From IMG/VR virus record IMGVR_UViG_3300044701_000863, positions 1 to 36,626 of that record: a DNA stretch of 36,626 nucleotides. The stretch is one strand, 5' to 3'. Both the position numbers and the translations under genes were made by a program. The notes below the pieces were generated by a model. The model had not been told where the DNA came from and searched no databases. It saw nothing but the letters and a program-made list of their open reading frames with translations. Source of the DNA: a virus. Below are positions 4,465 to 14,167 of the stretch, in pieces. Positions within the stretch are counted from its first letter, which is position 1. Every line of letters starts with the position of its first letter.

Positions 4465-4721
4465 TGGCTACGAAATCTGTGAGTCTGGCAGTCGGACGGG
4501 GCGAGAAGCGCCCTACAAGCCAAGGCGCGGGCCTGACCGCTAAGGGCAGAGCTAAGTACAACGCAGCTACCGGTAGCAACCTGAAAGCGCCTGCGCCGAA
4601 CCCTAAGACAGAAGCAGACAAGGGGCGCAAGGCGTCGTTTTGTGCCAGGATGGGCGCAGTGGCCGCCAAGGCCAAGGACGGCGAGCGGGCTAAGGCGTCA
4701 CTCAAACGAGGGAAGTGCTGA
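4464..4721 (+). CDS. Basic phage protein, DUF6321-like
   Basis: The 85-residue, Lys/Arg-rich protein starts at the ATG in a TGATG overlap with TerL. The segment GAGLTAKGRAKYNAATGSNL followed by APAPNPKTEADKGRKASFCARMG is the hallmark I associate with DUF6321, a small family common in aquatic phages between terminase and portal genes. The charge suggests nucleic acid contact, perhaps with packaged DNA or the packaging complex, but no function is established. No membrane segment or enzyme motif is seen. Confidence 0.8.
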   Translation: MATKSVSLAVGRGEKRPTSQGAGLTAKGRAKYNAATGSNLKAPAPNPKTEADKGRKASFCARMGAVAAKAKDGERAKASLKRGKC

Positions 4722-4722
4722 C

Positions 4723-5220
4723 ATGAAGACTTGCTTTAAGTGCAAGACCAGCAAGCCGTTTGACTTGTACTTTAAGCACGCGCAGACAACAGACGGCTAT
4801 CATAGTTGGTGCAAAGAATGCTGCACAGCAGGCAATGAGCGGTCTAGAGCTAAGCAAAATTCCACAATTGAAGGCCGCGCAAGAGTGTTTTTGCAAAACG
4901 CCCGAAAAAGTGCTACCAAACGAAAGCAAATTTTTGCTTTGACTGTTGCCGACATTGTCGAATGTTGGCACACCCAATGGGGTGTATGTGCGTACAGCGG
5001 ACGTCAAATGACGCTTGAAGCGGGGCATTTGCATACGGTTTCCATAGAACGTATTGATAGTTCCGTTGGTTACACGCCAGAAAACACAATTTTGGTGTGC
5101 CAAGCAATAAATCGCATGAAATCAGACTTTGCATACGAAGATTTTTACGCGCTGTGCCGAGATGTTGCACAATTTCTTGGTGACGATAGACTAGAGCTTG
5201 CGGTTGGAGCGCACAAATGA
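4723..5220 (+). CDS. HNH endonuclease, free-standing (1 of 3)
   Basis: The 165-residue product starts at ATG 4723, one base after the previous stop. Residues 4-34 carry cysteine pairs CFKC and CKECC, a zinc-ribbon-like element. The nuclease part follows CAYSGRQM (about 114-121), with SIERIDSSVGYTPENT and then VCQAINRMKSD, the usual HNH core with Arg-Ile-Asp and a late Asn. These genes are normally mobile homing endonucleases that cut alleles lacking them. It sits between two small basic virion-associated genes and overlaps the next start (ATGA). Its codons look more AT-rich than TerL, consistent with transfer. A role in packaging, as for some HK97-type HNH proteins, is less likely. Confidence 0.88.
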   Translation: MKTCFKCKTSKPFDLYFKHAQTTDGYHSWCKECCTAGNERSRAKQNSTIEGRARVFLQNARKSATKRKQIFALTVADIVECWHTQWGVCAYSGRQMTLEAGHLHTVSIERIDSSVGYTPENTILVCQAINRMKSDFAYEDFYALCRDVAQFLGDDRLELAVGAHK

Positions 5221-8561: not shown

Positions 8562-9131
8562 GTGGCCGTTTGTCATGCCCCGGGGTGCACTAAAGAAGCG
8601 AAAAATCGCTCTTTTTGCTGGGCGCATTACGAACGGCAGCGCAAATACGGAGCGTTTGACTTGCCCGTAAAAAAGAGTCTGTTTCAGATGTTTGCTGAGT
8701 CAGTAGAAGTTGATGAGCCAGACAAGTGTTGGCTCTGGCAAGGCAATTTTTTAAAGACAGGTCTTGGCTACGGACGAATAAACGCCAACCGTAAAAGCCA
8801 CATGGCGCATCGTCTATCGTATGAGTTTTTGGTTGGTCCGTTAGAAGATGGATTGCTGGCGCTGCATAAATGCGATAATCCCCGTTGCGTAAACCCTCAT
8901 CATCTGTACGCAGGGACGCACAAAGATAACGCAATTGATCGAGCCACCAGAAAACCGAACAGCTATGCAGTCGGGGCTAACGCAGCAAAAGCAAAACTAA
9001 CGGAAGATCAGGTAATTTCAATCAGGCAAGACGAACGCTCTTGCTACGCTTTGGCAAAACAATACGGTGTGACACCTGGGCTGATAAGCATGGTGAAAAA
9101 CCGTAAAGTTTGGAAACATTTAGGAGCCTAG
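8562..9131 (+). CDS. HNH endonuclease with C-terminal HTH (2 of 3)
   Basis: The 189-residue gene begins at GTG 8562 behind AAGGAGAG. An N-terminal zinc-binding segment (CHAPGCTKEAK...CWAHYERQRKYG, about 4-29) is followed by an HNH_3-type domain: CWLWQG, GYGRIN, HMAHRLSYEF, ALHKCDNPRCVNPHHL (about 105-120) and AGTHKDNA. The C-terminus (about 145-186) is a DNA-binding module, LTEDQVISIRQDERS then ALAKQYGVTPGLISMVKNR, ending WKHL. It is probably a mobile homing endonuclease. It sits between small structural genes and a fibre gene; GGAG for the fibre start lies inside its last codons. Confidence 0.9.
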   Translation: MAVCHAPGCTKEAKNRSFCWAHYERQRKYGAFDLPVKKSLFQMFAESVEVDEPDKCWLWQGNFLKTGLGYGRINANRKSHMAHRLSYEFLVGPLEDGLLALHKCDNPRCVNPHHLYAGTHKDNAIDRATRKPNSYAVGANAAKAKLTEDQVISIRQDERSCYALAKQYGVTPGLISMVKNRKVWKHLGA

Positions 9132-11679: not shown

Positions 11680-12882
11680 ATGGCTAACTCAATCCTTACG
11701 ATTGACATGATCACCCGCAAGAGTTTGGAAATCCTTGAAAACTCGCTGGTGATCACCCGTAACGTAAACCGTCAATATGACGACTCGTTCGCCGTTCAAG
11801 GCGCAAAAATCGGTTCCACGCTGCGTATCCGTCTGCCGGACCGCGCGCTGGTGACCGACGGTGCTGCGCTGCAAGTCCAAGACGATCAGGAACAGTTCAC
11901 CACTCTTACGGTGTCGAGCCAGAAGCACATCGGCGTGAACTTCACGACCGCTGAGCTGACCATGCAGCTCGATGACTTCGCAGAGCGTGTGCTGAAGCCT
12001 CGTATCAGCCAACTTGCGTCCAGCATCGACGCTGACGTTGCGAACTCGTTCAAGAACGTCTATCAGTCGGTTGGCACCCCCGGCACCACCCCCGGCACCT
12101 CGCTCGTTCTGCTGCAAGCGCAACAGAAGCTGAACGAAGCCGCTGCGGTAATGAACCCCCGCTACGCCACCGTTAATCCGGCGGCCAACGCGGCGCTGGT
12201 CGAAGGCATGAAAGGCCTCTTCAACCCGACCTCCACCATCAGTCGTCAGTTCAAGAACGGCATGATGGGCGAAGGCATCCTCGGGCTGGATGAAGTCAAC
12301 ATGTCGCAGTCGATCAAGCAGTTCACGACTGGCAGCCGGACCGGCGCGCACTCGGTGACGACCACCGTGTCGTCGCAAGGCGCGACCACCATCGCCATCA
12401 CTGGCACTGGCACGCAGGTCATCAAGCAAGGTGACGTGTTTACCATCGCCAACGTGTACGCGGTGAACCCGCAGACCCGTGAATCGACTGGCTCGCTCCA
12501 GCAGTTCGTTGCGACCGCTGACGCTACGGCGGTTGGTGGCGCGTACACGGTCAGCGTCAGCCCGGCGATCTACACTGCCAGCCAAGCCCTTGCGACCGTG
12601 GACTCGTTCCCGCAAGCCAGCGCAACGGTCACCTTCCTTGGCAGCGCCAGCACTCAGTACCCGCAGAACCTGGTGTACCACCGTGACGCCATCTCGTTTG
12701 CGACCGCTGACCTGCTGATGCCGCAAGGCGTTGACATGGCCTCGCGTCAGGTCCATAACGGCATCTCGATGCGTATCGTACGGCAATACGACATCAACAA
12801 TGATAGGCTACCTTGTCGCATCGATGTATTATATGGTTTTTCTGTCATCCGGCCCCAAATGGCCGTTCGTCTCTGGGGCTAG
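11680..12882 (+). CDS. Major capsid (coat) protein, P22 gp5-like
   Basis: The 400-residue protein fits the P22 coat family: N-terminus MANSILTIDMITRKSLEILE, early EDQ-rich strands, KHIGVNFTTAELTMQLDDFA, VNPAANAALVEG and a C-terminal RIDVLYGFSVIRPQMAVRLWG segment. It folds as the HK97-type shell subunit, probably with an inserted domain around residues 210-330 (Thr/Ser/Val-rich). AAGGAG lies rather far (about 12 bases) before the ATG at 11680. Codon use is strongly biased through most of the gene, but the last 28 codons (from about 12799) switch to AGG, CTA, GTA, TTA, TAT and TCT. This change sits directly next to an HNH gene and suggests replacement of the 3' end. Confidence 0.94.
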   Translation: MANSILTIDMITRKSLEILENSLVITRNVNRQYDDSFAVQGAKIGSTLRIRLPDRALVTDGAALQVQDDQEQFTTLTVSSQKHIGVNFTTAELTMQLDDFAERVLKPRISQLASSIDADVANSFKNVYQSVGTPGTTPGTSLVLLQAQQKLNEAAAVMNPRYATVNPAANAALVEGMKGLFNPTSTISRQFKNGMMGEGILGLDEVNMSQSIKQFTTGSRTGAHSVTTTVSSQGATTIAITGTGTQVIKQGDVFTIANVYAVNPQTRESTGSLQQFVATADATAVGGAYTVSVSPAIYTASQALATVDSFPQASATVTFLGSASTQYPQNLVYHRDAISFATADLLMPQGVDMASRQVHNGISMRIVRQYDINNDRLPCRIDVLYGFSVIRPQMAVRLWG

Positions 12883-12893
12883 CCTCCAAAGAG

Positions 12894-12923
12894 TTGACAG
12901 TACGGAACTAGTTGGGGCATACT
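12894..12923 (+). promoter_or_regulatory. Promoter candidate for the third HNH gene
   Basis: TTGACA (12894-12899) and CATACT (12918-12923, 4/6) are separated by 18 bp in the 65-bp gap between the coat stop and the HNH ATG. Three ACTAGT hexamers (12907, 12921, 12942) occur in this gap; one lies in the spacer and one overlaps the -10, so they may be regulatory or remnants of the insertion. GGAG (12938-12941) gives a good ribosome site. Confidence 0.5.
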
Positions 12924-12947
12924 AGTTCTCCCTAATAGGAGACTAGT

Positions 12948-13724
12948 ATGGACCCTAAAATCTGCTGTATTAAGGAATGCGAGAACGTCGTGTTGGCTTT
13001 AGGACTTTGCGACAAACACTGGAAGCGAAACCGTAAGTTTGGTTCGCCGATAGCGGTTGCGCAGCATTCAGGACAGTTTCGCGGCTTGCCGGCCGAGACA
13101 CGATTCTTTATGCAAGTCAAAAAGACTGATACGTGCTGGGAGTGGATAGGCGCTCGGGACAAAAACGGCTACGGCATGTTTAAGGGTGAAGTTGGCGGAA
13201 TGCTCTTCAAAAAAGCGCATCGCTTTTCGTTAGCGTTTCACACTGGCGATCTGCTAGTAGGAACGCAAGCGCTTCACTCTTGTGACAACCCATGCTGTGT
13301 AAATCCCGCGCATCTCCGCGCTGGCACAAATGCAGAAAACATGGCAGAAAAAATTGCCAAAGGCCGTGCTCGAGCGGCTCCTGGCATTCGCAACCGCGCA
13401 GCCATCCTTACAGATGAGCAAGCGGCTGCGATTCTCGCAGACCCGCGCCCTTACGCTGCGATCGCCGCAGACTACGGTGTCACCGCGTCAACCATCGGCA
13501 GCTTGAAACAACGGCTTTCTTGGCGGCACATTGCCGGGGAAGTTGTGCACCACAAGCGCGTTGGAAAACAAGGTGAGACTTGCTATGCTGCGAAGATAAC
13601 AGCGGAAGACGTGCTGGCGATTCGGGCTAGTTCCGAACCAGGAAAAGACTTAGCTCTGAAATACGGCGTGTCGCGGCAGTCAATTACTGACATCCGCAAG
13701 CGTCGGTCTTGGAAACATATCTGA
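12948..13724 (+). CDS. HNH homing-type endonuclease with two HTH modules (3 of 3)
   Basis: The 258-residue protein has a zinc-binding N-terminus (CCIKECENVVLALGLCDKHWKR, shown here split: CCIKEC, then CDKHW), an HNH_3 domain (CWEWIGARDKNGYGMF, KKAHRFSLAFH, ALHSCDNPCCVNPAHL at about 107-122, then AGTNAENMAEK) and two C-terminal HTH-like repeats. Repeat one is LTDEQAAAILADPRP to SWRHI; repeat two is ITAEDVLAIRASSEP to SWKHI. The HNH gene at 8562 has only one such module, so this protein carries a duplicated DNA-binding unit. It lies directly behind the coat gene whose 3' codons are altered, as expected for a free-standing homing endonuclease. It has its own promoter candidate. Confidence 0.9.
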   Translation: MDPKICCIKECENVVLALGLCDKHWKRNRKFGSPIAVAQHSGQFRGLPAETRFFMQVKKTDTCWEWIGARDKNGYGMFKGEVGGMLFKKAHRFSLAFHTGDLLVGTQALHSCDNPCCVNPAHLRAGTNAENMAEKIAKGRARAAPGIRNRAAILTDEQAAAILADPRPYAAIAADYGVTASTIGSLKQRLSWRHIAGEVVHHKRVGKQGETCYAAKITAEDVLAIRASSEPGKDLALKYGVSRQSITDIRKRRSWKHI

Positions 13725-13735
13725 AAGGATTTATC

Positions 13736-14167
13736 ATGGCTCTTCCCAATGGTGCTGGTGGCTATCAGGTCGGTGACGGTAATCTTAACGAACCCGTCCT
13801 CGGCTATCTGCCCGACCCCGCGTCTGAAGCTGGCGTAACTGCCGTTACGCTAACGGCCGCTGAAGTAACCGGCGGTATTTTGGTGGCTAACCCCGGTACT
13901 ACCGCCACGACCTACACGATGCCCATCGTAGTAACGTCGGGCGCTACCACCGGCGTCAATGATCTAGTGTCCAGTGCTAAAGTTGGCAGCACCTTTAGCT
14001 GGGTGATCGTCAACATTGGTACCACGACCGGCGACATCACGATGTCCGCTGGCACGGGTACGGGTTGGACGATTGTCGGCTCGCTGACCATCGACAACGA
14101 AAAGTCAGCCTCGTTTATCGCTCGTAAAACCAGCGACACGACTTGGACTCTGTACCGCGTAGCCTAA
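13736..14167 (+). CDS. Head decoration-like protein, 143 aa
   Basis: I start it at ATG 13736, behind GAAAGGA; the upstream extension overlaps the HNH gene. The 143-residue product begins MALPNGAGGYQVGDGNLNEP, an N-terminus seen in proteins encoded just after P22-like coat genes. The rest is Thr/Gly-rich beta structure (TWVIVN-like strands: FSWVIVNIGTTTGDITMSAG, then SASFIARKTSDTTWTLYRVA). This suggests a trimeric decoration or head fibre protein bound outside the capsid. A strong terminator follows directly. Without the HNH insertion it would be next to the coat gene. Confidence 0.75.
   Translation: MALPNGAGGYQVGDGNLNEPVLGYLPDPASEAGVTAVTLTAAEVTGGILVANPGTTATTYTMPIVVTSGATTGVNDLVSSAKVGSTFSWVIVNIGTTTGDITMSAGTGTGWTIVGSLTIDNEKSASFIARKTSDTTWTLYRVA

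Follow-up and report, generated by a model that had tools for sequence, protein, structure and literature searches.

A candidate free-standing HNH homing endonuclease and a synonymously recoded tract at the 3' end of its neighbouring phage coat gene

Why should the gene of a phage major coat protein change its codon choice close to its 3' end without changing the encoded protein, and is this related to the HNH gene that lies immediately behind it? We addressed this question in the virus record IMGVR_UViG_3300044701_000863 (positions 1 to 36,626; we refer to this whole stretch of 36,626 bases as the window), which comes from a podovirus-type phage carrying a P22-type coat gene. The major coat protein gene (11680..12882, + strand, 400 aa; PF11651, E 3.3e-37; PHROG 283 'major head protein') is followed by an HNH endonuclease gene (12948..13724, + strand, 258 aa; PF13392; PHROG 59/3593) which encodes an HNH_3 domain and then two helical repeats, the spacing between the two agreeing with the 65 bp given in an original prediction made for this DNA. 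The coat gene is uninterrupted and the HNH gene is found inside neither an intron nor an intein; as an Rfam search of the window returned 0 matches, an intron explanation was dropped. At the 3' insertion boundary, the TGA stop of the HNH gene overlaps with the leader of the next gene (TGAAAGGATT; 13722..13735, + strand), a leader which HNH-less relatives share, and in the window and its relatives alike the HNH gene is located between the coat gene and this next gene. The next gene itself (13736-14167) is only ~34-52% identical in most relatives, including some whose coat is 98% identical, and its start and leader are conserved despite the low overall identity; its junction is likely a recombination boundary.

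The HNH assignment is based on a PF13392 match of 27.8 bits (cut-off 24.8) and on hits to PHROG HNH families (E ~1e-26), and the active-site residues were invariant across 31 sequences. An AlphaFold model of the protein (pLDDT 76, pTM 0.41) had I-HmuI and I-PpoI as its best matches in a fold search, both of them weak (E 0.02-0.06); a profile sequence search of solved structures gave no useful match, and only the fold search pointed to these two enzymes. I-HmuI, the best match (E 0.02, weak and partial), is a phage group I intron enzyme that nicks a DNA polymerase gene; it has the HNH active site in common with the protein studied here but is intron-encoded, whereas the HNH gene in the window is free-standing.

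We favour, with a probability of about 0.82, the explanation that this gene encodes a free-standing homing endonuclease which targets the 3' end of the coat gene and is inherited together with a tract of synonymous changes that would confer resistance to it.

Recoded codons in the coat gene

To locate the codon switch, we scored codon typicality in consecutive 13-codon segments, taking as reference the codon use of coat gene cores from the window's own clade. Codons 365-377 and 378-390 scored -1.44 and -1.51, respectively, while all other segments of the coat gene scored -0.84 or higher. The difference between tail and core typicality was -0.85 in the window's clade, compared to an average of +0.01 in coats outside the clade.

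The cleanest comparison was with L222, an HNH-less contig whose coat is 99% identical to that of the window. Specifically, codons 366-393 contained 20 synonymous differences in 28 codons and 0 replacements, compared to 20 synonymous and 5 replacement differences in the remaining 365 codons (20/28 vs 20/365, Fisher p = 1e-16); a codon switch arising by chance is excluded. Because the differences from L222 fall in codons 366-393, the recoded tract spans approximately 12775 to 12858 (+ strand), which also contains the codon-typicality minimum. The jump in synonymous divergence from an HNH-less relative had thus been correctly anticipated, as had the preserved protein end and the presence of the codons AGG, CTA, GTA, TTA, TAT, TCT and CCC, every one of which occurs in the tail. 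The limits of the tract, by contrast, had to be revised: the switch begins at codon 366 (12775), ~24 bp before the predicted position 12799, and the block, although indeed ~28 codons long, does not comprise the last 28 codons of the gene but stops near codon 393 (12858), with the final seven codons being close to ordinary codon choice.

Coat-end alleles and HNH genes among relatives

A first sample of the clade had been gathered using a tail sequence pattern; because such a search was biased, we replaced it with a tail-blind sample of 61 contigs, collected through a DNA pattern located within codons 86-98 that was itself derived from loci of the first sample. Most contigs are short metagenomic fragments. 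Amongst those tail-blind contigs that cover the coat end we found two alleles, ordinary (typically GACCGTCTGCCCTGCCGTATTGACGTG) and recoded (GATnGnCTnCCnTGTCGCATCGATGTA). Ordinary tails occurred in 22 haplotypes without the HNH gene and in 0 with it, while recoded tails occurred in 10 haplotypes with the gene and 11 without it (Fisher p 1.8e-4, in a test that treats sequences as independent). Correction for ancestry left 8 independent pairs, in ~4 of which the tail differs, each time in the direction expected (p ~0.125), meaning that the corrected link comes from few (~4) informative pairs. The three combinations found (ordinary, recoded with HNH and recoded without HNH) match the genomes that a homing cycle would produce, namely sensitive, occupied and resistant-empty ones. 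The central claim of the original prediction, namely a free-standing homing enzyme with the coat gene as target and a linked recoded tract, is supported by the divergence jump, by the occurrence of HNH genes only with recoded tails and by the same codons being altered in separate HNH-carrying lineages (see below); yet that prediction had counted HNH-less relatives with the same codons as evidence against itself, and, taken literally, the 11 recoded haplotypes without the gene are such relatives.

The two alleles differ in the tail far more than in the core: within this one coat clade, recoded and ordinary alleles are separated in the tail by 0.61 synonymous differences per codon and in the core by 0.21, the latter being the same as within each group. 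Within-group values for the tail were 0.17 (ordinary) and 0.35 (recoded). As the tail, unlike the core, is more diverged between alleles, the gene appears to contain an 84-bp block that diverges within an otherwise mixing background. On average, recoded tails are ~0.6 residues and ~17 silent changes apart from ordinary tails of the clade, whereas two ordinary tails with as much divergence usually encode different proteins, most often 5 residues apart (only 4 of 89 pairs have no residue difference). So small a residue difference is more easily explained by silent changes arising in situ, or by a donor encoding an identical protein, than by acquisition of the tail from a distant coat. The clade's recoded tail could have a single origin, in which case selection need not have acted on every one of its codons.

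We also found three contigs (L202, L207 and L217) with recombinant tails, in which recoded-like flanks surround an ordinary centre and which have no HNH gene. These narrow the link with HNH to the middle of the tail, namely codons 379-383 (12814..12828, + strand), which read TGT CGC ATC GAT GTA in the window and TGC CGT ATT GAC GTG in ordinary tails. Together with the distribution of codons for Arg380 and Asp382 described next, this suggests that the resistant target site probably has its core at codons 379-383.

HNH relatives with 65-73% identity (L094, L095/L097 and L099/L100) and with 31-36% identity (L103, L110 and MW202691) are likewise located directly behind P22-type coat genes, and every relative with at least 65% identity lies immediately 3' of a coat gene wherever its upstream end is covered. 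In all of these named loci Arg380 is encoded by AGG, AGA or CGC, and Asp382 by GAT. Across all distinct tails, CGT at Arg380 was found in 0/19 tails with HNH vs 177/213 without it (p 8e-14, sequences again being treated as independent), and GAT at Asp382 in 19/19 vs 31%, the distant coats L103, L110 and MW202691 being included. None of 80 coats related to that of the HNH-carrying L099 (83-90% identical) had an HNH gene, and none had the altered codons of L099. As tail and HNH gene can transfer together, the HNH-carrying lineages may not be fully independent.

Evidence for such transfer comes from the core tree, on which the tail allele changes at least 10 times and HNH presence at least 10 times. 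For example, the cores (codons 45-365) of L001 (HNH-less) and L083 (HNH-carrying) are identical whereas their tails differ, and L192 combines the core of L083 with the tail of L089 to within one codon. These observations suggest that the tail and the HNH gene jump between coat core lineages. The recoded haplotypes without HNH are consistent with loss of the gene from resistant phages, and several carry what appear to be relics of it: L001, L164, L173, L177, L180 and L181 retain the TTGACA promoter and the hairpin (both described below), as well as bases which, when read by eye, resemble the first HNH codons. As these are the remains that loss of the HNH gene would be expected to leave, they fit this scenario. 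Another recoded, HNH-less type (L010) has a terminator hairpin in place of the promoter and hairpin, an arrangement also found behind ordinary tails.

Two loci from other coat lineages, L185 and L077, have recoded tails (GATAGGCTACCATGCCGCATCGATGTA; GATAGATTGCCATGTCGCGTGGATATC) with no HNH gene behind them, and may represent resistant-empty alleles or transferred tails.

Proposed homing at the coat gene and competing explanations

According to the explanation we favour, the HNH enzyme would recognise the final part of the coat gene, at about codons 376-386, and would cut or nick it in related phages that co-infect the cell and have no HNH gene. Repair templated by the HNH-bearing genome would then copy the HNH gene along with the adjoining coat tail. 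The HNH-bearing genome would itself be spared because its own tail encodes the same protein with other codons at the recognition site, and phages that later lose the HNH gene would retain the resistant tail. Support at the sequence level comes from the recoded block, the one-way association with HNH, the transfer between coat lineages, the codons shared with other HNH-carrying lineages and the covarying hairpin described below; from these we infer that the enzyme cleaves the coat gene and where it does so, that it homes in crosses and that the promoter is used.

The alternative that survives best, although we consider it unlikely, is that the HNH gene homes to the intergenic region or to the leader of the next gene, and that the coat tail is a passive flank from a donor with different codon use. 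Co-conversion flanks are indeed expected on either side of any homing site, and the GC3 of both the tail (0.46) and the HNH gene (0.54) is below that of the coat core (0.79). However, clade phages with ordinary tails often have the same downstream terminator and leader as those with recoded ones, hence it is the tail and not the leader that separates HNH-excluding from HNH-permitting genomes. A passive flank is also at odds with the recombinants, which restrict the HNH link to the middle of the tail, with the alteration of the same two codons (380 and 382) in several coat lineages, and with a residue difference far smaller than that of equally diverged ordinary tails.

One could also suppose that the tail was recoded against another nuclease (e.g., an intron-encoded enzyme of relatives, or host restriction or defence) and that HNH merely tends to adjoin it, which would account for recoded tails without HNH in the 11 clade haplotypes, L185 and L077, and which draws on the presence of further homing introns within this coat gene in relatives. 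We find this very improbable, considering that those introns are located near codons 18, 33 and 46, ~1 kb from the tail, that no HNH gene was found with an ordinary tail, and that the codon change tracks the HNH gene across lineages.

Slightly less credible still is a role of the recoded bases in HNH expression, through a promoter, an operator or an RNA element located within the coat gene, even though the tract ends only ~90 bp upstream of the HNH start. A promoter scan of the recoded tract returned no consensus site, and the leader was no more similar to the ordinary target than were shuffles, so both the tail as an HNH promoter and the leader as an operator mimicking the target were rejected; moreover, recoded tails are kept in HNH-less phages, and the predicted promoter and hairpin are downstream of the coat stop codon. 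Finally, drift of local codon use or a relaxation of codon selection towards the gene end, to which the somewhat atypical first 13 coat codons (-0.84) might point, has next to no chance of being correct, being refuted by the L222 comparison; coats outside the clade also show no drop at their ends, near-identical coats have ordinary tails, and divergence is not raised in the core.

Predicted control of the HNH gene and relation to known systems

Between the coat and HNH genes we identified a candidate sigma70-like promoter (TTGACA-N18-CATACT, TATACT in relatives; 12894..12923, + strand; consensus match only), overlapped by a hairpin (12918..12950, + strand; -17.7 kcal/mol, z -5.3) whose 5' arm includes the -10 box and which pairs both the Shine-Dalgarno sequence GGAG (12938-12941) and the HNH ATG. 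In the HNH-carrying loci examined, the hairpin pairs the Shine-Dalgarno sequence and start codon, or reaches up to the start codon. Amongst closer relatives, pairing of the stem is preserved by compensatory changes: 4 of 11 pairs were changed on both sides (counted in 7 sequence rows hand-trimmed to the hairpin), with 97.4% paired and no shuffle as high. The window's clade has the promoter TTGACA-N18-(C/T)ATACT with its -10 in the 5' arm of the hairpin, L083 being an exception. The candidate promoter is weaker in diverged HNH loci; in MW202691 (HNH 32% identical) the hairpin arm contains TATAAT, and in L110, which has a longer leader, folding gave no clear hairpin case.

These features suggest that the HNH gene is under control similar to that known from T4, where a hairpin hides the ribosome site of I-TevI, segB and Aeh1 mobE and a transcript from a local promoter lacks the 5' arm (PMC2988022). 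Here, mRNA reading through from the coat gene would fold into the hairpin, which would cover both ribosome site and start codon, and translation would be held back; mRNA from the local promoter would start inside the 5' arm, lack that arm and be translatable. The hairpin over the ribosome site is shared with the T4 cases, and the candidate promoter is sited so that its own transcript would omit the 5' arm, as there, but the promoter predicted here is sigma70-like and not a T4 late promoter, and the gene encodes an HNH enzyme in podoviruses with P22-type coats.

The proposed homing itself resembles that of T4 SegF, SegG, SegE and MobE, as in each case a free-standing nuclease gene lies by a conserved gene and is polymorphic for presence and absence. 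The T4 enzymes cut the neighbouring gene in relatives without the nuclease, and repair transfers the linked flank, as we propose here. Targets of free-standing homing in T4 are genes 56, 32, uvsW and nrdB, while segD adjoins capsid gene 23 and its target is not known (PMC2988022). Unlike in these cases, the coat gene itself is the apparent target here, and the resistant allele appears to be a synonymous rewrite. Cyanophage S-PM2 offers a further parallel in F-CphI, which carries out collaborative homing at psbA: there, too, a free-standing enzyme is found next to an essential-type gene and the HEG-less allele is the target (PMC6083498). The owner of F-CphI, however, is protected by an intron at the cut site, whereas here silent recoding seems protective; an intron at or near the cut site, characteristic of collaborative homing, is absent, those of relatives being ~1 kb away.

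Phage nuclease genes are reported to cluster near capsid genes and at recombination boundaries, and there are precedents both for homing enzymes close to capsid genes and for introns within coat genes (PMC10448857, PMC3706429). Those reports of HEG islands and capsid introns describe neighbourhoods; here, a probable target and its resistant allele can be inferred from populations. In the literature we searched, the coverage of which was partial, we came across no case of a free-standing homing enzyme demonstrated to target a coat gene and no described set of silent resistant alleles.

If the favoured explanation is correct, the locus documents in natural populations how a homing cycle runs within one gene, through alleles that are sensitive, occupied or resistant-empty, and it yields a homing target predicted to about five codons from sequence alone. 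It would also extend the promoter-in-hairpin control of T4 to podoviruses, and it suggests that a conserved protein end may be no safe target, because silent changes let phages escape. More generally, a block of odd codons beside a nuclease gene could serve as a predictor of homing targets in phages. A more speculative reading, which we hold only tentatively, is that of a running arms race, in which the coat-cutting nuclease serves as a weapon on relatives infecting the same cell, and 'armour' tails of synonymous codons spread and diversify, even without the nuclease. Diversifying selection at the silent level would be expected to raise the diversity of recoded tails, and this diversity (0.35 synonymous differences per codon) does exceed that of their own cores (0.21) and of ordinary tails (0.17).

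Introns and further candidate homing genes were found in the same coat gene family and elsewhere in the window, respectively. Group I introns (Rfam RF00028) interrupt this coat gene family at differing sites near the 5' end, namely at codon ~33 (L085:356-1081 and L089:3058-3783), codon ~18 (L086:3016-3737, below the gathering score, E 9e-8) and codon ~46 (L110:4777-5497). The codon-33 intron encodes an HNH gene of its own, and several intron-bearing coat loci also have a free-standing HNH gene at the 3' end. The window contains a second HNH_3 gene (8562-9131), 13 close relatives of which (74-83%) are found just upstream of the start of a fibre-like gene, most of them preceded by a homologue of a small 75-aa gene. 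Lastly, an endonuclease VII-like gene (4720-5220; PHROG 1035), which immediately follows a short gene downstream of the terminase gene, is a candidate for a third homing gene in this one 36-kb genome.
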